Below, piece by piece: positions 21,924 through 56,930 of a stretch of 64,000 bases of DNA. The notes under the pieces were generated by a model. It worked only from the letters and a program-made list of their open reading frames with translations, ran no database searches and had not been told where the DNA came from. Both the position numbers and the translations under genes were made by a program. This stretch comes from Thermotogota bacterium. GTDB lineage: Bacteria; Thermotogota; Thermotogae; Thermotogales; DSM-5069. Within the stretch, counting starts at the first letter, position 1; every line of letters starts with the position of its first letter. The stretch lies in the NCBI GenBank assembly GCA_029551145.1, contig JAKPGA010000022.1, positions 1 to 64,000 on the forward strand, written 5' to 3'.

Positions 21924-21952
21924 TTTATCACGTCTACAAAATATTGTATACT
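21924..21952 (+). promoter_or_regulatory. Candidate promoter of the dehydratase-type operon
   Basis: TTTATC (21924-21929), 17-base spacer, TATACT (21947-21952), 27 bases before the start ATG 21980. The -35 is weak and the -10 good. It lies in the short intergenic space shared with divergent glmS. Confidence 0.4.
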
Positions 21953-21979
21953 GTTTTTTGGCAATTTTCGGAGGTGAGC

Positions 21980-23224
21980 ATGAGCAAGAAAAGTGTCGGA
22001 TTTGGAAGGATTTTGAGAAAATACTCTCACAAACCTGCAACAGTTAGGACTCTGCTCAGACTGGGTCTTAGCGCTGAACTCACCAGAAGAAGGATAGTTG
22101 CCCTTTCAAAAAACACTTTCACAAGCTGGACCGATTATCTCGCTTTGGATGCCGTCTGTGGTGCTGTGAATGGTAAGAAAACGGCTTGGGTGAACATGTT
22201 CTTCCCGGTCGAAATCCTGTTCGCCTTCGGTTTGAACTGTGTTTCAGCAGAAGGCCTTTCCGGTATGTTTGCCTCTATGTTCCTGGAAGATCTGGCGATC
22301 AATAAGGCTGAGGCATTTGGGATCTGTAGGAACCTTTGCACTTTTCATAGAACAGGAATTGGAATATCACTTCTCAATGTTCTACCAAAACCACTACTTG
22401 TTGGAACCACAAACGTCTTATGCGATGGAAATATCCCAGTCTTTACGACTTATTCATCATTGAACTCGATACCTCTATACGCAATCGATGTTCCAAGAGA
22501 AGACAATCCGCAAAACCAGTCTTATCTCACCAAACAACTTGAGAAGACAATTTATTCACTGGAAAATCAACTCAAGAAAAGGTTCAATTACTCAAAATTC
22601 CAGCAAATCCTTATGATGGAGAAAGAATCATTGGATATGCTCATGGAAGAATATCCAAAACTCTGTGAGAACCCAATCTCAATGGAACTTTATCAGCACG
22701 TAAACGTATTGTACGCCCTTCATCTGAGACCATATCAGTTGTTGAACGCAGCCAAGGCACTTTCAGAAGAAAGAAAACCATCGAAAGACGACAAAACAAG
22801 ACTGCTTTGGCTTCATCTTGCGCCTTACTATGACAACGATCTGTACAGTATCTTTGGAAATAATTCTCGATTTCTAATTGCGACAAGCGAGTTCGAGTGG
22901 GACTGGTTCTACTGGAAACCAGATCCACAAAGACCTATTGAATCTCTGGCACAGAAACTTTTGAGAAACCCTGAGGTAGGAGACCTTTCAAAGAGGGCTG
23001 CTTTTGTGACAAAACTCGCAAGCGATTTCAAAGTGCAAGGTGTAGTACACTTCAGTCATTGGGGCTGTAAACAATCCTCAGGGTCGATTTTTCTTCTCAA
23101 AGAGAAATTCGAACAGCTCGGCATACCTTTCCTCTCACTGGACGGCGATGCCGTTGATCACACCAACCAGTCATCTGCCCAGTACAGGACAAGAGTAGAG
23201 GCTTTCCTGGAGATGATAAAATGA
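21980..23224 (+). CDS. 2-hydroxyacyl-CoA dehydratase / double-cubane cluster family protein
   Basis: A 414-residue HgdB/BcrC-family protein. Recognisable parts are the substrate/cluster domain opening WVNMFFPVEILFAFGLNCVSAEGLSGMFAS, conserved cysteines in FGICRNLCTFH and TNVLCDGN, and the C-terminal VVHFSHWGCKQSSGSIFLLKEKFEQLGIPFLSLDGDAVD. These proteins hold Fe-S clusters and receive low-potential electrons from an ATP-driven activator, which is encoded next in the same operon. No acyl-CoA pathway genes are nearby, so a true 2-hydroxyacyl-CoA dehydratase is less likely than a double-cubane-type reductase; this is inference. Start at ATG 21980 after GGAGGTGAGC; overlaps the next gene (ATGA). 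Confidence 0.85.
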   Translation: MSKKSVGFGRILRKYSHKPATVRTLLRLGLSAELTRRRIVALSKNTFTSWTDYLALDAVCGAVNGKKTAWVNMFFPVEILFAFGLNCVSAEGLSGMFASMFLEDLAINKAEAFGICRNLCTFHRTGIGISLLNVLPKPLLVGTTNVLCDGNIPVFTTYSSLNSIPLYAIDVPREDNPQNQSYLTKQLEKTIYSLENQLKKRFNYSKFQQILMMEKESLDMLMEEYPKLCENPISMELYQHVNVLYALHLRPYQLLNAAKALSEERKPSKDDKTRLLWLHLAPYYDNDLYSIFGNNSRFLIATSEFEWDWFYWKPDPQRPIESLAQKLLRNPEVGDLSKRAAFVTKLASDFKVQGVVHFSHWGCKQSSGSIFLLKEKFEQLGIPFLSLDGDAVDHTNQSSAQYRTRVEAFLEMIK

Positions 23225-24912
23225 TCGTTTACAATTGTCCGTTGGTCCCATTTGAGTTCTTCAAGGCACTTGGCATACAATCTCGAAGAATCGAAAACAC
23301 TGGTTGTGAATTCGATAGACTCAGCCCGAACCTGTGTTCTTTGTGCAGAAGATCTGTAGCTTCCATTGACAAGAATGATGTCCTCGTGTGGATCGATTCC
23401 TGTGATTCGAGTAGAAGAACATCAGATTTTCTTAAACTGACGAACAAGATTTTCGAACTTCATGTTCCAGTGACTTCCGATGAAGAAGCCGTTTCGAGAC
23501 TGTCGGACGACTTGAAAATACTCTGGAGATCTTTGAAAGCTGTGTTTGGTAACGTCAGCGATGAAAAACTTTACGAGGTACACAGTGACTTTCAAAAGCA
23601 AATGGCGTTACTTGAAAAAACTCTGAGAGAGGACTTGAATGAGGCAAAAAGACTGTACGAACAGATAATATCTGAAAAATGGGTAGGTTCCACACAACGT
23701 AGAGGTAAACCCATTTTGATTCTGGGTGCTCCCGTAGAGGAGAACATAGTTAAGATAATTGAAGAAAGCGGTGGATATGCCATAAATGGAACTTGTTCAG
23801 GTCCCTATTCGATGATTTCACAAATACCTGACAGAAGTAATGTGTTCAAGAACATTGCATACCGAATTTTGAACAAGAAACTCGTATGCATGAGATCGGC
23901 CTTCAAGAGGGATATATCCAAATTGATAGACACAACAAAACCAGAAGCGATAGTCCTGCACACGATAAAGTTCTGTGATTTCTACAGCTTTGACGAAAAG
24001 GAATTGCGAAAAACCAAGATTCCATTTGTCGTTGTAGAAGATGATCTAACCTCTCTTGCCAATGCTCAGATGAAGACGCGAATTGAGGCGTTGATAGAAC
24101 TCTTGAGTCACCAAGAGAATGGCATCCCAGAAAGATTCGAGTTGTTCGTTGGAATCGACAGTGGCTCAACGACCACCAAGATCGTCGTTCTTGATGCACA
24201 GGCAAAACCTTTGTACAAGAATACTGTGAAAACAGGTGCTTATCCAGTTTTGACAGCAAAAGGGCTGTACGAAGAGGTGCTGGCGAAATTCAAAGTGCCA
24301 CGTTCCAAAATCTATCTTGTGTCAACTGGTTATGGCAGAGCGTCACTTGATTTCGCAAATGAGCGCGTAACTGAGATCACTTGTCACGCCAAAGGTGTTC
24401 ATTTTTTCTTGCCAAAAGTCAAGACAATAATCGATATCGGTGGACAAGACAGCAAGGTCATAAGGGTTGAGGATGGTCAAGTCGTCGAGTTTGCCATGAA
24501 CGATAAATGCGCTGCTGGTACAGGTAGATTTCTTGAAGTCATGGCAAATATTCTTGATACACCCCTCCAGAAGATAGGCAAGTTATCGCTGGAACACAAA
24601 AATGAAGTCGATATCAGCAGTGTCTGTACTGTCTTCGCCGAATCGGAAGTAGTCTCGCTCAGGGCCTCGGGACATACAAGAGAAGACATACTCTACGCAG
24701 TCCACAAAGCCATCGCAAAGCGAGTCGGCACGATGTATGAACGAATAAAAGGTACACAACCTGTGGCTTTGACTGGTGGCGTCGCGCTTAACGAAGGACT
24801 CAAGGTTGCCCTCGAAAGAGTTCTCAATATCGAGATTCAAATCCCACCTGAGCCAGTCTTAACTGGTGCTTTCGGAGCGGCGGTCATAGGCTATTGGGCG
24901 AACCGGCAATGA
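23221..24912 (+). CDS. Fusion of a dehydratase-like domain with a HgdC-type ATP-dependent activator
   Basis: 563 residues in two parts. Residues 1-290 look like a second, diverged HgdA/HgdB-like subunit: NCPLVPFEFFKALGIQSRRIENTGCEFDRLSPNLCSLCRRS and VLVWIDSCDSSRRTSDFL, with several cysteines. From about residue 308 comes a full activator ATPase of BadF/BadG/HgdC type: FVGIDSGSTTTKIVVLDAQAKPLY, IDIGGQDSKVI, the cluster cysteines in MNDKCAAGTGRFLEVMA and DISSVCTVFAESEVVS, and the C-terminal ALTGGVALNEGLKVAL. The activator domain would form a homodimer bridged by one [4Fe-4S] cluster and drive electrons into its partner. Its 3' end overlaps ispE by 29 bases on the other strand. Confidence 0.85.
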   Translation: MIVYNCPLVPFEFFKALGIQSRRIENTGCEFDRLSPNLCSLCRRSVASIDKNDVLVWIDSCDSSRRTSDFLKLTNKIFELHVPVTSDEEAVSRLSDDLKILWRSLKAVFGNVSDEKLYEVHSDFQKQMALLEKTLREDLNEAKRLYEQIISEKWVGSTQRRGKPILILGAPVEENIVKIIEESGGYAINGTCSGPYSMISQIPDRSNVFKNIAYRILNKKLVCMRSAFKRDISKLIDTTKPEAIVLHTIKFCDFYSFDEKELRKTKIPFVVVEDDLTSLANAQMKTRIEALIELLSHQENGIPERFELFVGIDSGSTTTKIVVLDAQAKPLYKNTVKTGAYPVLTAKGLYEEVLAKFKVPRSKIYLVSTGYGRASLDFANERVTEITCHAKGVHFFLPKVKTIIDIGGQDSKVIRVEDGQVVEFAMNDKCAAGTGRFLEVMANILDTPLQKIGKLSLEHKNEVDISSVCTVFAESEVVSLRASGHTREDILYAVHKAIAKRVGTMYERIKGTQPVALTGGVALNEGLKVALERVLNIEIQIPPEPVLTGAFGAAVIGYWANRQ

Positions 24913-28985: not shown

Positions 28986-30218
28986 TCAGAACGCGTAGAA
29001 TTCAACGAGTTGGCCTGCGTATGCGCCTTCAACCTGTGATGGAATTCTCACAACTCCATCAGCGAGGTGTATGTTCGAAACGTGTGCGGTTTCGCTGAAA
29101 AGTGGTTCTGCCAGAATATCACCTTTCTCAAACTTCACTCTCACTCTCACAAAGTGTTCACGACCTTGTACAGAAGGCACGTTTTTGGTAAGTCTAACCA
29201 GTCCGGCAGGTCTGGGTATGAAATCTTCATCGTTTTCAAGCCTTTTCAGAACCGGCAACAGAAGGAACCTGCTGCTGACGAAAAACGAAACGGGGTTCCC
29301 TGGAAGTCCCAAAATAGGTTTTCGCCCCACCAGAGCGAAGACAGTTGGTTTCCCTGGTTGGATCATTGCACCGTGATAAATAACTCCGGGTTTACCCATT
29401 CTTTCAATTGCTCTTGCTGTGTAATCACGAGTTCCAATAGAACTTCCACCGGCTATCACAACGATGTCGTATTTATCAACGCAGTCTTCCAGCATTCTGT
29501 GTAAACTGGTCTCATCATCCTTTACATGTCCTACTCTTTGAACAGAAAAACCAAGATCCCGCAACCATGCAACAAGAGTGTATGTATTGCTATCTCTAAT
29601 CTGAGCAAAGGAAGGCGTTTGCCACGGCTCGACTATTTCGTCACCTGTCGAGATTACCGCGATTTTCGCACGTCTATAAACAGTGATCTTTGTGATACCG
29701 AGTTGTAGGAGTAATTGAATATCATTGACTCTAATCCTTCTGTTTCTTTGAAGCACGATTTCGCCAGCTTTTACATCTTCATCACTTTTCATCACATTTT
29801 CGCCAACAGCAACTGCCTTCATGATCTCAACGAAGTTATCAAAGATCTGTGTGTGTTCTGCCATCACAACCGCATCTGCTCCCTGTGGCAAAGCCCCACC
29901 AGTAGGTATCCAAGCAGTTTCACCGGGCTTCAATGTTCGATCCGGCTTTTCTCCTATTCGAACTTCAAAAGCCATTTTGAGCAAAACGGGTAAATTCGGA
30001 GAGGCACCCTTGGTGTCCGATGCATTTACAGCATAACCATCGACCAGTGACTTGTCGAAACCCGGCAGGTCTTGCGGTGAATATATATCCTTGGCACACA
30101 CGAATCCTGAGGCATTTACCGATTCGATTATTTCAATCTCCTCTATGGGTTTAATCCTCGCAACGTAGTTTTCGTAAATCTCTTGAATCATCGCGAATTT
30201 GAGAAATTCAACCCTCAT
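28986..30218 (-). CDS. moeA: Molybdopterin molybdotransferase MoeA
   Basis: Inserts molybdate (or tungstate) into adenylylated molybdopterin. Typical MoeA parts: residues 20-50 with SPQDLPGFDKSLVDGYAVNASDTKG, then GETAWIPTGGALPQGADAVVMAEHTQ, the MoCF-like core KIAVISTGDEIVEP, DIVVIAGGSSIGTRDYTARAIE, and QPGKPTVFALVGRKPILGLPGNPVSFFVSSRF. The product has 410 residues. It overlaps the end of mogA by eleven bases and lies downstream of the MoeA-PBP fusion gene; the three form one operon. Confidence 0.94.
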   Translation of the reverse strand: MRVEFLKFAMIQEIYENYVARIKPIEEIEIIESVNASGFVCAKDIYSPQDLPGFDKSLVDGYAVNASDTKGASPNLPVLLKMAFEVRIGEKPDRTLKPGETAWIPTGGALPQGADAVVMAEHTQIFDNFVEIMKAVAVGENVMKSDEDVKAGEIVLQRNRRIRVNDIQLLLQLGITKITVYRRAKIAVISTGDEIVEPWQTPSFAQIRDSNTYTLVAWLRDLGFSVQRVGHVKDDETSLHRMLEDCVDKYDIVVIAGGSSIGTRDYTARAIERMGKPGVIYHGAMIQPGKPTVFALVGRKPILGLPGNPVSFFVSSRFLLLPVLKRLENDEDFIPRPAGLVRLTKNVPSVQGREHFVRVRVKFEKGDILAEPLFSETAHVSNIHLADGVVRIPSQVEGAYAGQLVEFYAF

Positions 30219-30717
30219 TGTCTTTCACCATTTTTTGTGCACAGTCAATTGTTGATCCCTTTATCTTTTCTACGGCGTGTGGTATGACGGGTAAAATCAC
30301 CTGCAAATTTTCCTGCACAGCCTTGGGACTACCTGGGAGATTGATTATGAGCGTCTGTTTTCTCACACCAACGACCGCACGTGACAACATCCCAAAGGGT
30401 GTATGCCTTAAAGATTCATTAATCATTGCAATCTCCATACCATGAAGCCTTTTCTCTATGATCGACAAAGTTGCTTCGGGTGTAACATCTCTTGGTGACA
30501 CGCCCGTTCCGCCGGTTGTAACCACAAGATCATATCCTTTGTCGCTCAGATTTACGAGTTCATCCCTTATCAAATCGAATTCATCCGGCAGAATCTTGTA
30601 ATACTCAACTATTGCGTCTATCTTTTCGAGCATCTTGATGATGATTTTACCACTCTCGTCGTTTCTCTGACCGGTGAACCCTTTGTCGCTCAAGGTGAGT
30701 ACCGCCGACTTAATCAA
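30208..30717 (-). CDS. mogA: Molybdopterin adenylyltransferase MogA/MoaB
   Basis: Adenylylates molybdopterin ahead of metal insertion. The sequence from AVLTLSDKGFTGQRNDESGKIIIKML through DLVVTTGGTGVSPRDVTPEAT, then INLPGSPKAVQENLQVILPVIPHAVEKI is characteristic. The ORF-track start (30747) adds an N-terminal lead not seen in the family; TTG 30717 gives MIKSAVLTLSDKG, has AGAGGTGA five bases upstream, and overlaps the end of the MoeA-PBP gene by eight bases. About 169 residues, typical. Confidence 0.9.
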   Translation of the reverse strand: MIKSAVLTLSDKGFTGQRNDESGKIIIKMLEKIDAIVEYYKILPDEFDLIRDELVNLSDKGYDLVVTTGGTGVSPRDVTPEATLSIIEKRLHGMEIAMINESLRHTPFGMLSRAVVGVRKQTLIINLPGSPKAVQENLQVILPVIPHAVEKIKGSTIDCAQKMVKDNEG

Positions 30718-32629
30718 CCGAATCACCTCTGATAATTTCTCCCACATTTGAAAGATTATACCCCTGCCATGTCAACGCATTGTTGCGAAAAGATTCTGAA
30801 AGTATCGTATTCATTATCAATTGAAACCGAGAATCTTCAATGAATTCTGGTAAGATGAGTAAATCATATTCTTCCCAGAACAGAGGAATGAATTCCAAAT
30901 CCATGATCTGTGCCACAGGTGCTATACCAAGACCAACATCAGCAAGACCTCTCTTGATCTTCAGGGCAAGGTTTATGTGCGTGAACTCCTCATCATCGTA
31001 CCCATTTATCTGCGACTGGTCTATACCGAGTCTTGACAGATGGTAGTCGAGCAGTATTCTTGTGCCTGAAGCCTTTTGTCTGTTCACAAATCTTATATCT
31101 TTGCGTACCAGATCCTCGATGCCTTCTATTCTTTTCGGATTTGACTTCTGGACAATCAAACCCTGATTTCGTCTTATGAATTTCACAAGTATGAAGTTTT
31201 TCAAATACTTCTTTACATATGGGAGATTGTACTCACCAGAATTGGGGTCCAAAAGGTGGATTCCACCTATGTGAGCATAACCTTTGGCTATTGCCATGAG
31301 GCCGCCCATGCTCCCGACATTGGTTATACTCATACTAACGGTGTGATCTCTTTCTTTAATCATGTCTGCGAGAATAGAAACCAGCGGGTCGTTGCTACCT
31401 ATGAAAAGAATATTTTTGTCGATCTCCTCTATAGATTTGCAAGTTCTCACAGAGATCTTTTGACCCTCATCTAAGACTTCAACACCCTTTGGAACGACAG
31501 CGGTTCCATCCATTTTGGCGAGAGCCTCCATGGTCGCAGCGCCCCTCTTGAGTGGCACAAAGACATATCTATCTTTTACCCTTGAAAGACTAACTCTTAT
31601 GAATTCATCCTCGGAGATCGACGAGAAAATTCTTCGAGTTGAGACAGCTTCCACAACAGCTTCATTGCTCGGCAGAGTTTTGTATTTTTCAAAGATTATC
31701 GGTTTAACGATGTGATCAAGGACTACGTAGCAAGAACCAGGATAACCAGGTAGACCCACGACGGGCTTGCTGTTTACCAAAGATAGAATTGTCGGTTTGC
31801 CAGGTCTTATATTCAAACCATGAGCCACAACTTCACCGAGATCGTTCAAAACATGGTAAGAATAGTCGAAACTGCCTGCAGATGAACCTGCATTCAACAA
31901 AACCATATCGTAAGACAACACCATTTTTGAGACAGCAGATAGTATAGACTCATAACTGTCATTAACAGGTTGATGTACATCCACAACCACACCCAGTTCA
32001 TCTAAATAGTTTGATATGAGTGAGGAATTTGTCTCTGGTATTCTGCCATCATTAGGATCGCATTGTGGTGGAATTATCTCATCGCCAGTGGGAATAATGA
32101 CCGCCTTGATCTTTCTAATAACTTCTAACTCAAAGACACCCGCAGCCAAAAGAAGTGAAATATCGTAGGGTTTCAAGCGATGATAGCGCGTGAAGATCAT
32201 GTCCTTCTCACAAAGATCCTCTCCTATCAAACGAATGTTGTGAAACGGTGGCACTGACTCAAAAATCTGGACATGATCATCATCTATCACGTGGATGTTC
32301 TCAATCATTATCACGGCGTCAAAAGGTGGTTCGAGACGGCCTCCAGTGTTCACGAACTTGAATTGATCCTTAGAAAGAACCTTGGGGTTCGTTTTTGTTG
32401 CACCGGTTGTGTCAAGGCTTCTAACGAAGATTCCATCCATCGCAGCGCTGTTATAAGTTGGCACGCTTCTGTTAGCATAAACTGGTTTCGCAAGGACTCT
32501 TTTGAGAGATTCTGTCGTAGGTATGGTCTCCGTTTCCGGAACGAAAAAACCAGTTTCCTGAAGTTTTGCTTTGAACAACTCAAGCGCCTCAATGACATCG
32601 AGCTTTTTCAGATATATTTTTCTCTCCAA
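30710..32629 (-). CDS. MoeA fused to a periplasmic-binding-protein-like domain
   Basis: 639 residues, starting at TTG eight bases after GGAGGT. Residues 1-400 are MoeA-like (RSVPTYNSAAMDGIFVRSLDT; VNTGGRLEPPFDAVIMIENIH; AVIIPTGDEIIPP; MVLLNAGSSAGSFDY; IRPGKPTILSLVNSKPVVGLPGYPG). Residues 415-630 are a PBP-like/LysR substrate-type domain (ILFIGSNDPLVSILADMIKERDHTVSMSITNVGSMGGLMAIAKGYAHIGGIHLLDP...GIAPVAQIMDLEFIPLFWEEYDLLILPE). There is no signal peptide, so the binding domain is cytosolic and may sense or hold molybdate/tungstate or a pterin. This architecture is known in several anaerobes. First gene of the moeA-PBP/mogA/moeA operon. Confidence 0.9.
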   Translation of the reverse strand: MERKIYLKKLDVIEALELFKAKLQETGFFVPETETIPTTESLKRVLAKPVYANRSVPTYNSAAMDGIFVRSLDTTGATKTNPKVLSKDQFKFVNTGGRLEPPFDAVIMIENIHVIDDDHVQIFESVPPFHNIRLIGEDLCEKDMIFTRYHRLKPYDISLLLAAGVFELEVIRKIKAVIIPTGDEIIPPQCDPNDGRIPETNSSLISNYLDELGVVVDVHQPVNDSYESILSAVSKMVLSYDMVLLNAGSSAGSFDYSYHVLNDLGEVVAHGLNIRPGKPTILSLVNSKPVVGLPGYPGSCYVVLDHIVKPIIFEKYKTLPSNEAVVEAVSTRRIFSSISEDEFIRVSLSRVKDRYVFVPLKRGAATMEALAKMDGTAVVPKGVEVLDEGQKISVRTCKSIEEIDKNILFIGSNDPLVSILADMIKERDHTVSMSITNVGSMGGLMAIAKGYAHIGGIHLLDPNSGEYNLPYVKKYLKNFILVKFIRRNQGLIVQKSNPKRIEGIEDLVRKDIRFVNRQKASGTRILLDYHLSRLGIDQSQINGYDDEEFTHINLALKIKRGLADVGLGIAPVAQIMDLEFIPLFWEEYDLLILPEFIEDSRFQLIMNTILSESFRNNALTWQGYNLSNVGEIIRGDSVD

Positions 32630-52167: not shown

Positions 52168-52193
52168 TCTTGAAGTCCAAAGGGGGTATATGC

Positions 52194-54887
52194 ATGAAGG
52201 TGACGATTAACGGGCGCACATATGAAGCCATTGAAGGACAGACCATCTATGATTTGGCAATGCAAAACGGCATAGATATCCCAGTGTTGTGCCATCATCC
52301 TGCACTTGAGCCAATAGGTGCGTGCAGAATTTGTGCGGTCGAGGTGGAAGGTCTCAAAACACTTCAAACTGCTTGTACCACTAAGGTTTTTGAAGGGATG
52401 AAAATCCATACTGCAACCGATAGAGTAACCAACGCAAGGAAAACAAATCTTTCTCTCTTGCTGAAAGTTCATCCAAATGACTGCATGACCTGTGATGCCA
52501 ATGGAAACTGCAAACTTCAAGAGCTTGCCTATGAGTACAATATCAAAATACCTTCACAAGAAGTACAATTGAGGGGATTACCACTGGATGATGCAGATCC
52601 ATTCATTGTGAGAGATTTGAATAAATGTATCCAGTGTCAGTTGTGTGTAAGAGTGTGTGATGAAATAGAGAATATGTCAATCTATTCAATGGTTGAGAGA
52701 GGATACGAAACACTTCCACAACCTGCTTTTGGTACGCCTTTGAAGGAAAGCGAATGTGTTTTTTGTGGGCAGTGCGCCACAGTATGCCCGGTCGGTGCAA
52801 TCGTTGAAAAACCAGCTATTGGTAAAGCTCGATGGTGGGAGGTTGATAAAGTCACGACGACCTGCCCATATTGCGGTGTGGGATGTCAGATAGATGTGTA
52901 CGTAGATAAAAGAAAGAAGGAAGTTGTCAGGGTTTACGGGTCTGGCATAAATCCTGATGTCAATGACGGTGTAGCCACCTGCGTCAAAGGCAAATTTGGC
53001 CTGGATTTTGTTAACGATCCTGCGAGATTGAAAAAACCACTGATAAAAAGAAACGGAGAATTCACTGAAGTTTCTTGGCAGGAGGCTCTTGACTATACTG
53101 CAAATGGTCTGAAGGCAGTGATCACCAAGTATGGCAGCGAGAGTGTTGGTGTATTGTCTTCAGCCAAATGCACAAACGAAGAAAACTATCTAATGCAGAA
53201 GTTTGCAAGAGCAGTTTTGAAGACGCCAAATGTCGATCACTGTGCAAGATTGTGTCATGCCTCTACCGTTGCAGGGCTTGCCCGTGCCTTTGGAAGTGGT
53301 GCAATGACAAATAATCTGAAGGATATTCTTCAAGCACAAGTAATTCTCGTTACAGGCTCAAACACGACTGAAGCACATCCTGTTTATGGTTCGAGAATCA
53401 AGAAAGCTGTCAGAAATGGTGCGAAACTCATAGTTTCAGATCCAAGAAAGATCGAATTGGTTAAGTATGCGACGATTTGGCTTAGGCAAAGGCCGGGTAC
53501 CGATGTAGCACTTTTCAATGGTTTGCTGCACGTGATAATCAAAGAGAACTTAGTAGATTGGCCTTTCATATCCAACAGGACAGTGGGTTTTGAGGAACTA
53601 AAGAAGATAATTGGTAAATACACACCCGAATACGTAGAATGAATAACTGGAGTGCCAAAAGAAAAGATCATCGAAGCTGCGAGACTTTACGGTACGGCAC
53701 AACGAGCCGCGGTTGTTTACTCAATGGGTATAACACAGCACGAACATGGCACGGACAACGTTCTTGCGATCGCAAATCTTGCAATGGCAACAGGTAATCT
53801 TGGAAAAGAAGGGGCAGGAGTAAATCCACTTCGAGGTCAGAACAATGTACAAGGTGCTTGTGATATGGGAGCATTGCCAGATGTATTGACAGGTTATCAG
53901 AAAGTAACCTCATCTGACGCGATCGAGAAATTCGAAAAGGCATGGAAAACGAAAATCCCAGCGAAAGTCGGGTTAACTGTCGTTGAAATGATACATGCAG
54001 CTTTGGAAGGAAAGATAAAAGCTCTTGTGATCATGGGAGAAAATCCAAGACTCTCAGACCCAGATGCATCTTTGGTTGATGAAGCCCTGTCAAAACTTGA
54101 TTTCTTTGTTTCAATAGATATGTTCTTGAATGAAACAAATAAACATGCTCACGTAATATTACCTGCTGCTTCGTTTTTGGAGAAGGATGGAACTTTCACC
54201 AATACTGAAAGACGTGTCCAACTTGTTAGAAAGGCTTTCGACCCAGTTGGAGAAAGCAAGCCTGACTGGCAGATCATAATGGAACTATCGAGAAGATTAG
54301 GTTATGATATGACCTACTCCTCACCAGCCGAGGTAATGGAAGAAATCAGATCCTTGATACCAATTTACGGTGGTATAACCTACGACAGAATAGAGGAAAA
54401 AGGTCTACAGTGGCCATGTAGAACACTTGAAGATGCTGGCACTCCTATACTGCACACAAATAGGTTTGCATCCACTGATGGTTTAGGTCGTTTCCACGTC
54501 GTCGAATATCGAGATCCTCCTGAACTTCCAGATGAAGAGTATCCCTTCTACCTCACGACAGGTCGAGTGCTGTTCCATTTTCACACCGGTACTATGACAA
54601 GAAGGAGTACCATAGCAAAATACATGAACGAGCCATATGTTGAGATGAACCCAGTTGATGCTCAAGAAATTGGCGTGAATGATAAAGATGAAATCTACAT
54701 AACTTCAAGAAGAGGAAGGGTCAAGGGAATCGTGAAGATCACAGAGAAGGTCCCACCAAGAACGATCTTCAGCTCATTTCATTTTCATGAGACCCCCATA
54801 AATGAACTAACTATATCTGATCCACTCGACCCAATAGCCAAGATTCCAAATCTCAAAGTGACCGCTGTGAGAGTGGAAAGAGCATGA
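52194..54887 (+). pseudogene. fdhA: Formate dehydrogenase alpha subunit (Cys type), interrupted by in-frame TGA
   Basis: One frame of 897 codons from ATG 52194 (after AAAGGGGGT), broken only by TGA at 53640, codon 483; the ORF track shows two same-frame pieces. Domains in order: 2Fe-2S ferredoxin (LCHHPALEPIGACRICAVEVEG...TACTT), NuoG-type His/Cys site (HPNDCMTCDANGNCKLQ), two 4Fe-4S sites (CIQCQLCVRVCDE; CVFCGQCATVCPVGAI), catalytic-domain 4Fe-4S (TTCPYCGVGCQID), bis-MGD domain with cysteine in place of selenocysteine (CARLCHASTVAGLARAFGSGAMTN), and C-terminal FYLTTGRVLFHFHTGTMTRRS...NDKDEIYITSRRGRVKG. The TGA sits in EYVE-stop-ITGVPKEK, where relatives carry an ordinary charged residue. As written, the enzyme would be truncated. 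Confidence 0.85.
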
Positions 54888-55489
54888 TCGGTGTCATTTT
54901 GAATGGTGGGAATTCTGAAAGATTTGGAGAAGACAAGAGTACATACCTTCTAAGAACAAAAACTATGATAGAACATGTCTATCAGAGATTGACAAGCGTC
55001 TTCGACCGAGTTGTACTCGTGGGGAAACCATACAAGAATATGCAATATGTTGAGGATCAATACAAAACGGGTCCCGTTGGTGGTGTTCTTACAGCACTGA
55101 ATGTGCTCAAAGACAATATCTTTGTTGTTGGATGCGATATGCCATTTGTTCAGCCAGCCGTTATCAGAAAAATGTGGAGTCATTTCGAAAAAAGTAATGT
55201 AGATGCCGTTGTTCCAAAACTGCTCGATGGCATTCATCCACTTCATGCATTCTACAATGTGTCCATCAAAGAAAATCTGATATGGTCCATGAAATATGCA
55301 GATAGTTCCTTTCACTCAGCTTTTGACCGAGCTGAAATTGATTATCTAACAGAAGATTTCTTTAAAACGATACCAGATTGGGAATGGAGCTTTTTCAATA
55401 TAAATACAAAATCAGATCTAAGGTTTTTAGAGGTGAACAGATGTTCAGGAAAACCTACAGGGTTAGATATGACGGGCAATGCGAAATAG
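54884..55489 (+). CDS. mobA: Molybdenum cofactor guanylyltransferase MobA
   Basis: Adds GMP to molybdopterin to give the guanine dinucleotide cofactor used by formate dehydrogenase. The N-terminal nucleotidyltransferase motif is MIGVILNGGNSERFGEDKSTYLLRTKTMIEHV (LxGGxSxRxGxDK type). Further: YKTGPVGGVLTALNVLKDNIFVVGCDMPFVQPAVIRKM and AVVPKLLDGIHPLHAFYN. The product has about 201 residues. Its ATG overlaps the fdhA stop (ATGA), and its end overlaps fdhD by 49 bases. Confidence 0.9.
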   Translation: MIGVILNGGNSERFGEDKSTYLLRTKTMIEHVYQRLTSVFDRVVLVGKPYKNMQYVEDQYKTGPVGGVLTALNVLKDNIFVVGCDMPFVQPAVIRKMWSHFEKSNVDAVVPKLLDGIHPLHAFYNVSIKENLIWSMKYADSSFHSAFDRAEIDYLTEDFFKTIPDWEWSFFNINTKSDLRFLEVNRCSGKPTGLDMTGNAK

Positions 55490-56127
55490 TAGATGATCAA
55501 CTTATAGATGACAAACTGATCGACTTATATGTTAACAACAAACTTGCTGAACAAATTCACTGCTACCCAGAAAACATGGAAGAACTGGTGATTGGTAAGT
55601 TGGTGTCTCAAGGCACAAAGCCAATTAATTGGAGCTTCCACTCAAACACAAATGAAGTTCGCATAGAAATTCTGGAGTCTCAAAGGCTCAATCCAGCAAG
55701 ATTAAGCGAAAAAACTTACCTAAGCGCACCAGTACTGATTGATTCTATGCGTGATCTCCTCAATAATCCATTGCATCAGCATACCGGCGCAGTGCATTTG
55801 GCAGGAATCTATACTGTTGGTGGAGAGTGTGTGGCAAAATTTGAAGACATTGGCAGACACAATGCTGTCGATAAAGTCATAGGATGGCTTGCCAAGAACA
55901 AGGTAGATCCATTTAATAAGGTACTTTTGTGTAGCGGGAGATTACCAATGGATATGGCTCTCAAATGTGTGTTATCAGGTATTGAGATACTGGCGTCAAA
56001 AGCGCCTGTTTTGGGCAGTGCAATCGAGTTTTCAGAAAGATTTAATCTCACAATAATCGGTTTTGTGAGGGAAAACAGGATGAACATATACACTCATCCG
56101 CAGAGAATCAAGGAGGTGTGTTTATGA
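55441..56127 (+). CDS. fdhD: FdhD-like formate dehydrogenase sulfurtransferase, lacking CxxC
   Basis: 228 residues from ATG 55441 (after TAGAGGTGAA); the ORF-track start lies deep inside mobA. The family regions are clear: ENMEELVIGKLVSQG, HTGAVHLAGIYTVGGECVAKFEDIGRHNAVDKVIGWL, LLCSGRLPMDMALKCVLSGIEILASKAPVLGSAIEFSERFNLTIIGFVRENRMNIYTHPQRI. FdhD passes sulfur to the Mo/W-bis-MGD cofactor of formate dehydrogenase. In E. coli this uses a CxxC loop; here the matching stretch (ARLSEKTYLSAPVLIDSM) has no cysteine, and no CxxC occurs anywhere in the protein. Whether it still transfers sulfur is open. Confidence 0.88.
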   Translation: MFRKTYRVRYDGQCEIVDDQLIDDKLIDLYVNNKLAEQIHCYPENMEELVIGKLVSQGTKPINWSFHSNTNEVRIEILESQRLNPARLSEKTYLSAPVLIDSMRDLLNNPLHQHTGAVHLAGIYTVGGECVAKFEDIGRHNAVDKVIGWLAKNKVDPFNKVLLCSGRLPMDMALKCVLSGIEILASKAPVLGSAIEFSERFNLTIIGFVRENRMNIYTHPQRIKEVCL

Positions 56128-56930
56128 AAACACCGTTGGAGGTTCAGAAAACGATAGTTGAGGAGGTTTCGGTCAAGAAAGCCAAACTGAGTTTTACTCA
56201 GATGGCGCTCTTGGGCATTCTCGCAGGTATGTACATCGGATTTGGTGGTATCATGGCGCTAACAGCGATGACTCAGGTTGAACCTTATGGGTTGAAAAAG
56301 GTTCTTGGCGGAGCTTTCTTCACTGTTGGACTGATGCTTGTAATTATAGCTGGGGCTGAACTCTTCACAGGAAACGTTCTTATGTTGACATCGCTCTACG
56401 CAAGAAAAATAAGTCTCAGGCAGATGCTCAGGAACTGGATAGTCGTTTATCTTTTCAATTTTGTTGGATCACTATTGATCGCTTGGATGCTTCTTCAAAC
56501 AAACTTATGGGGTATGGGGCAGAATATCAACGATTTTGGAAAGACTGCGATTTCTGTTGCTAACTCGAAAGTAGCTCTCGGTTTTAGTGCGATCTTTTTC
56601 AGAGGTATGCTCTGCAATATATTAGTCGATCTTGCCGTCATACTTGCACTTGCGGCGGACAGTGTTGAAGGCAAAATACTTGGCATATTCTTCCCCATAA
56701 TGACCTTTGTTGCGATAGGTTTTGAACACAGTGTGGCAAACATGTCCTTGATACCCATCGGGCTTTTCATAAAAGCGGCTTCTGGTGTTGGGCCAGAGAC
56801 TCTCAACTGGCTGGGATTTTGGAAAAACATCATCGCTGCGACGCTGGGGAACATAGTTGGGCCAGGTATTTTCACTGCGCTTTTTTATTATCTCAGCTAT
56901 TATAAAACAAGTAATCAGTCCAAGACCTGA
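56124..56930 (+). CDS. focA: Formate/nitrite channel, FocA family
   Basis: 268 residues from ATG 56124, five bases after AAGGAGGTG, overlapping the fdhD stop. Six membrane segments of the FNT fold are visible. Diagnostic parts are ILAGMYIGFGGIMALTAMTQV, GAELFTGNVLMLTSLYARKI, FFRGMLCNILVDLAVILALAADSVEGKILGIFFPIM and FEHSVANMSLIPIGLFI, which holds the conserved pore histidine. Next to fdhA, mobA and fdhD, formate is the likely substrate; the wider family also moves nitrite and hydrosulfide. Its 3' end overlaps the HD-GYP gene by 16 bases on the other strand. Confidence 0.9.
   Translation: MKTPLEVQKTIVEEVSVKKAKLSFTQMALLGILAGMYIGFGGIMALTAMTQVEPYGLKKVLGGAFFTVGLMLVIIAGAELFTGNVLMLTSLYARKISLRQMLRNWIVVYLFNFVGSLLIAWMLLQTNLWGMGQNINDFGKTAISVANSKVALGFSAIFFRGMLCNILVDLAVILALAADSVEGKILGIFFPIMTFVAIGFEHSVANMSLIPIGLFIKAASGVGPETLNWLGFWKNIIAATLGNIVGPGIFTALFYYLSYYKTSNQSKT

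Follow-up and report, generated by a model that had tools for sequence, protein, structure and literature searches.

Organization of the Gene Pair

The window, that is, the whole 64,000-nucleotide stretch of Thermotogota bacterium DNA that was analyzed (assembly GCA_029551145.1, contig JAKPGA010000022.1), harbors two overlapping ORFs on its + strand, the strand of all features described below. Gene A (21980-23224) encodes a 414 amino acid protein with an HGD-D domain (PF06050; E = 7e-60), and gene B (23221-24912) encodes a 563 amino acid protein in which a beta-type HGD-D domain (Pfam match at residues 9-295; E = 1e-30) is fused to a BcrAD_BadFG activase domain (residues 310-557; E = 1e-63). 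The HGD-D and BcrAD_BadFG domains of the pair exceed the Pfam gathering score, which places them in the HGD-D/BadF superfamily of 2-hydroxyacyl-CoA dehydratases (HAD), benzoyl-CoA reductases (BCR), and DCCP, and a genome search returned A and B as the only HGD-D family matches. An earlier analysis of the letters alone (hereafter the sequence-only reading) had described this pair as a HgdB/BcrC-like gene and a fusion of a diverged HgdA/B-like domain with a HgdC-type ATPase; both ORFs lie where it had placed them, and Pfam agrees with their domains.

A strong Shine-Dalgarno sequence (ggaggtga, 21970-21977) precedes the ATG of gene A at 21980. A sigma-70-like promoter match further upstream (21925-21952) is weak evidence, since the consensus scan gave 8 such matches in this region where chance alone would give 5.2. 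The stop codon of A and the start codon of B overlap by 4 bp, as is usual across orthologous pairs. Within B, a shortened HGD-D domain (residues 1-295; 23221-24105) is joined through a 17-residue linker (residues 294-310; 24100-24150) to a BadF/HgdC-type activase, an ASKHA ATPase (residues 308-557; 24142-24891). The linker of orthologues is mostly 16-31 amino acids long, with a maximum of 72.

Gene A Encodes a Presumed Single-Cubane Catalytic Subunit

Residues of A and B were matched by column across 101 aligned HGD-D domains, among which the reference proteins were identified by NCBIfam (BzdN via TIGR03190 and DCCP via NF040772). Three Cys residues of A fall in the columns of the BzdO cluster ligands, namely Cys120 (22337-22339; BzdO Cys95), Cys148 (22421-22423; BzdO Cys128), and Cys363 in an HWGCK motif (23066-23068; BzdO Cys380), and Glu91 (22250-22252) corresponds to BzdO Glu65, which lies beside the cluster-bound water. 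These four residues are invariant in all 35 A proteins, as are His123, Asn151, and Trp277. The AlphaFold model of A (pLDDT = 92.5) has HadB, MbdO, and BzdO as its best fold matches. Based on its Pfam domain, tree position, conserved residues, and folds, A is presumed to be an alpha-type catalytic subunit with one [4Fe-4S] cluster, like the [4Fe-4S]-OH2 subunits BzdO and HadB. This departs from the sequence-only reading, which had taken A for a HgdB/BcrC-like protein of the double-cubane type; we rejected a double cubane in A on its Cys columns, as it has three of the six Cys.

Gene B Joins a Putative Double-Cubane Domain to an Activase

The HGD-D domain of B contains six Cys residues that share columns with those of BzdN and DCCP: Cys6 (23236-23238), Cys39 (23335-23337), Cys61 (23401-23403), Cys192 (23794-23796), Cys223 (23887-23889), and Cys252 (23974-23976). 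All six are invariant in the 34 B proteins, whereas two to three are missing from HadC-like proteins. This alignment suggests that the domain probably carries an [8Fe-9S] double cubane, in line with the double-cubane type assigned to it by the sequence-only reading. The fold of the domain points in the same direction, since among HGD-D proteins the AlphaFold model of B (pLDDT = 88.5; pTM = 0.77) ranks BzdN (8s02_B) first, followed by DCCP.

Through its C-terminal domain, the same model matches the folds of MbdQ, HadI, and HgdC. The activase is similar in sequence to HadI (E = 2.6e-61) and matches MbdQ well in both sequence and fold. Two cluster Cys per monomer are invariant in 34 of 34 B proteins: Cys430 (24508-24510), which aligns with HgdC Cys127, and Cys469 (24625-24627), which follows at the 39-residue spacing seen in HgdC. 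A third activase residue, Cys388, is also invariant. In addition, a single tblastn alignment of B spans E. coli yjiM-yjiL, where a DCCP gene precedes the gene of its activase; this suggests a route by which the fusion could have arisen.

Phylogenetic Placement and Family Membership

The HGD-D tree comprises an alpha half, with HadB, BzdO, a 500-aa group, and A (support 98), and a beta half, with HadC, BzdN, DCCP, the 370-aa partners, and the B domain (support 98). The A proteins form one clade (support 99) and so do the B domains (support 95), consistent with one origin of the fusion. The clade of HadB and BzdO leaves A outside (support 97). Forcing A to group with HadB-like rows was rejected by the AU test (p = 1e-6; set without BzdO), but this test overstates the case because the omitted BzdO intermingles with HadB-like rows, and the branch with support 97 is the safer evidence. 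Forcing the B domain with HadC was likewise rejected (p = 0.003). The closest unfused relatives in the tree are three-gene loci located behind a MarR gene in Deltaproteobacteria and Myxococcota; a grouping of A with two such loci (L048 and L056) was neither shown nor rejected (p = 0.46).

No NCBIfam equivalog cut-off was reached by A or B, including those of BzdN, BzdO, and BcrB, and only the general activase model TIGR00241 passes (265 bits; cut-off 125). The sequence-only reading had named placement inside a known 2-hydroxyacyl-CoA dehydratase clade, with CoA-binding residues kept, as grounds for its refutation; the tree and the constrained tests speak against such a placement, as neither A nor the B domain falls within the HadB or HadC clades. 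It is nonetheless worth considering that the pair is an (R)-2-hydroxyacyl-CoA dehydratase with the activator fused onto its beta subunit, which would account for the common fold and activase class, for HadB being the best fold match of A, and for the 68 bits that A scores with the HadB model. This explanation appears unlikely given the position of A outside the HadB/BzdO clade, the rejected constraints, the six Cys of B against three to four in HadC-like proteins, and scores far under the curated cut-offs (750 bits for HadB); moreover, no CoA-transferase or other CoA genes were seen nearby.

A strict DCCP system, in which small molecules would be reduced at double cubanes in both halves, fits the six DCCP Cys found in 34 of 34 B domains, the one-piece match to yjiM-yjiL, and the constrained test, in which a grouping of the B domain with DCCP was not rejected (p = 0.21). 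Known DCCP, however, forms a homodimer that carries two double cubanes, whereas A does not have the six-Cys set and belongs to the alpha half, and the window proteins score 60 and 75 bits with the DCCP model (NF040772) against a cut-off of 350, so that we regard this reading as improbable. Together, A and B have the three-Cys alpha subunit with Glu and the six-Cys beta subunit expected of class I BCR. In the sequence membership tests as a whole, the pair falls outside HAD, DCCP, and BCR, yet it probably works like the ATP-driven reductases of the BCR and DCCP type.

Residues Involved in CoA Ester Binding

BzdO binds the thioester oxygen through Tyr97, Tyr298, and Gln274. The equivalent residues of A in the window are Phe122, Phe305, and Leu280. 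Across the 35 A proteins, the Tyr97 position is occupied by Phe (26) or Tyr (9), the Tyr298 position by Leu (24), Phe (5), Ile (4), or Met (2), and the Gln274 position mostly by Ile, Leu, or Thr, whereas the HadB-like and BzdO proteins of the alignment have Tyr at both Tyr positions. That the thioester Tyr pair is not kept speaks against a CoA ester, and A and B probably do not act on one. Two observations count against a CoA-independent enzyme: the Tyr retained at the Tyr97 position in 9 of 35 A proteins, and the helices predicted in the AlphaFold model of A, which in relatives make up the CoA channel. In addition, A has Asn151 in place of BzdO His131, which weighs against the proposed BzdNO-like reductase.

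These substitutions also bear on the idea that the pair is a class I benzoyl-CoA-type (aryl-CoA) reductase with a fused activase. Such an enzyme would have the same inferred cluster complement and an activase like MbdQ, which B matches well. We consider it very improbable, however, in view of the altered Tyr pair, of equivalog scores far under the cut-offs, and of a neighborhood in which no aromatic-degradation or CoA-ligase genes were seen.

Distribution and Genomic Context

Fused B is present in 24 of 101 related genomes, and gene A in 26, that is, the same 24 plus two with cut contigs, so that A and B co-occur across these genomes. Fused B was also found in a dozen Clostridia loci. Of 391 Clostridia genomes, about ten contain a full-length or near full-length match. 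An assembly error as the source of the fusion was rejected on this recurrence. Gene A lies upstream of fused B in Tissierellales, Lachnospiraceae, Clostridium, Desulfosporosinus, and others as well, and both Thermotogota and Clostridia conserve this gene order, the pair recurring in many anaerobes. The contig is part of a Pseudothermotoga-like genome, and its closest named relative is an uncultured Pseudothermotoga MAG (70% identity for B). Across the neighborhoods of 38 loci, A and B were the only gene families broadly common to different phyla. Given its wide recurrence and the lack of any other conserved neighbor, the pair is a stand-alone two-gene unit and not a one-off fusion. The sequence-only reading had remarked on the absence of CoA-ester metabolism genes nearby, and by inspection we likewise saw none among the neighborhood ORFs. 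A caveat is that lone gene pairs can work with pathway genes located elsewhere in the genome.

The absence of conserved neighbors and of a recognizable substrate pathway would also fit a reductive activator that hands low-potential electrons to another metalloenzyme and not to a small substrate. Related ATPases serve as electron pumps for other proteins. Nevertheless, the complete catalytic Cys/Glu set and the alpha-subunit fold are retained in A, neither of which a mere relay would need, and we regard this role as improbable.

DCCP genes have been reported in selenium-related clusters (PMC10418091), and a selenium link was looked at for this reason; none of the related genomes reached the selD cut-off, and the link is therefore not supported in this set. 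An open-access literature search returned no paper on the fusion, and biochemistry was found for no member of the A/B clade. The pair is real, conserved, and uncharacterized.

Other genes of the window were also noted. One in-frame TGA (53640-53642) interrupts a formate-dehydrogenase-like alpha subunit at 52170-54887 (+). The gene may be broken, the TGA may be a sequencing error, or there may be another cause; the TGA does not coincide with the usual active-site Cys/Sec position, at which a Cys appears to be present. By inspection, molybdopterin-type genes (MoaB/MoeA-like, MobA-like, and FdhD-like) and a formate/nitrite-transporter-like gene, which flanks the formate dehydrogenase region, are located at 28986-32629 and 54884-56930.

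Proposed Function and Mechanism

In BzdNO, the catalytic [4Fe-4S]-OH2 cluster resides in BzdO and the electron-storing [8Fe-9S] cluster in BzdN (PMC11971306). The three Cys and Glu91 of A together with the six Cys of B indicate a BzdNO-like and not a DCCP-like make-up. We propose, with a probability of roughly 60%, that A and B together make up a single ATP-driven reductase of very low potential, with the BzdNO cluster set and a fused activase, whose substrate is probably a small non-CoA compound. The sequence-only reading, which suggested an uncharacterized reductase carrying its own electron pump, is supported on this point but not in its typing of A.

From the observed domain make-up, Cys/Glu conservation, subunit class, conserved gene pair, and fusion, we infer the cluster types, the electron path, the subunit contacts, and the loss of CoA use in the following model. 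Reduced ferredoxin, the presumptive donor, would load a [4Fe-4S] cluster held between two B activase domains, each contributing Cys430 and Cys469. ATP hydrolysis would then push electrons into the [8Fe-9S] cluster of the B N-terminal domain, where they would be stored before passing to the [4Fe-4S]-OH2 cluster of A (Cys120, Cys148, and Cys363, with Glu91 beside it), at which the substrate would be reduced. Two B chains are required per activase cluster, so that a pump dimer would come with two storage domains; an A2B2 complex would be expected, its halves alternating at or sharing the pump. Acetylene or azide as substrates would be a guess by analogy.

More tentatively, the pair could be related to the enzymatic Birch reductase but naturally independent of CoA, with a single-cubane catalyst that is fed by a double-cubane store and a pump run by ATP, store and pump being in one polypeptide, and with a free small molecule as substrate; the activase would have to homodimerize, probably with two reductase heterodimers per pump dimer. 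The need for CoA activation is a stated limitation of enzymatic Birch reduction, and the [8Fe-9S] double cubane has been reported only in BzdN and in DCCP, whose biological role is not known (PMC11971306). Against this background, A and B represent a clade of their own, present in Clostridia and in cultivable thermophiles, which, by sequence, has the BzdNO cluster set with a covalent pump. They would offer a compact, probably thermostable two-gene system for ATP-driven low-potential chemistry, possibly including reduction without CoA activation, in which the fusion constrains the arrangement of pump and store.

Comparison With Known Systems

The closest counterparts in cluster make-up are BzdNOPQ and MbdONPQ, in which an alpha subunit with a single cubane pairs with a six-Cys beta subunit holding a double cubane, the heterodimer being served by a BadF-type activase. 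Their activase is separate and heterodimeric (PQ), whereas in B a single activase domain is fused to the beta subunit; moreover, the beta domain of B is about 75 amino acids shorter, A does not keep the CoA-thioester Tyr, and the proteins belong to different clades. DCCP and its reductase (E. coli yjiM-yjiL type) resemble B in having a six-Cys HGD-D protein followed by an activase, with no pathway genes, but DCCP forms homodimers, has no alpha-type partner, and is served by an activase encoded separately. HadBC-HadI and HgdAB-HgdC share with A and B the fold, the three cluster Cys and Glu of A, and the activase type; they differ in a HadC without the double-cubane Cys set, a separate activator, CoA-transferase partner genes, and their clade.

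The likewise uncharacterized L048 (701-4358) and L056 (3221-6804) loci encode A-like and B-domain-like subunits plus an activase, which is separate, in the order MarR, beta, alpha, activase. Other domain combinations were also observed: an 802 amino acid protein from an Acetobacteraceae-labelled MAG (L058, 1947-4355) carries tandem HGD-D domains, beta-like then alpha-like, and a 1380 amino acid protein on contig C60 of the same genome as the window (L226, 1268-5410), widespread in relatives, combines DUF2229 with two stretches of BadF activase and has a weak match to HGD-D. Finally, a reversed activase-HGD-D fusion beside a very diverged HGD-D gene occurs in Aromatoleum and Sterolibacterium (L066, 6762-8912; also L092, L101, and L071). 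In the Aromatoleum loci L066, L092, and L101, the activase is fused to a six-Cys HGD-D domain with the second HGD-D gene adjoining, as in the pair described here, but these proteins belong to another clade, and their reversed domain order points to an independent fusion.
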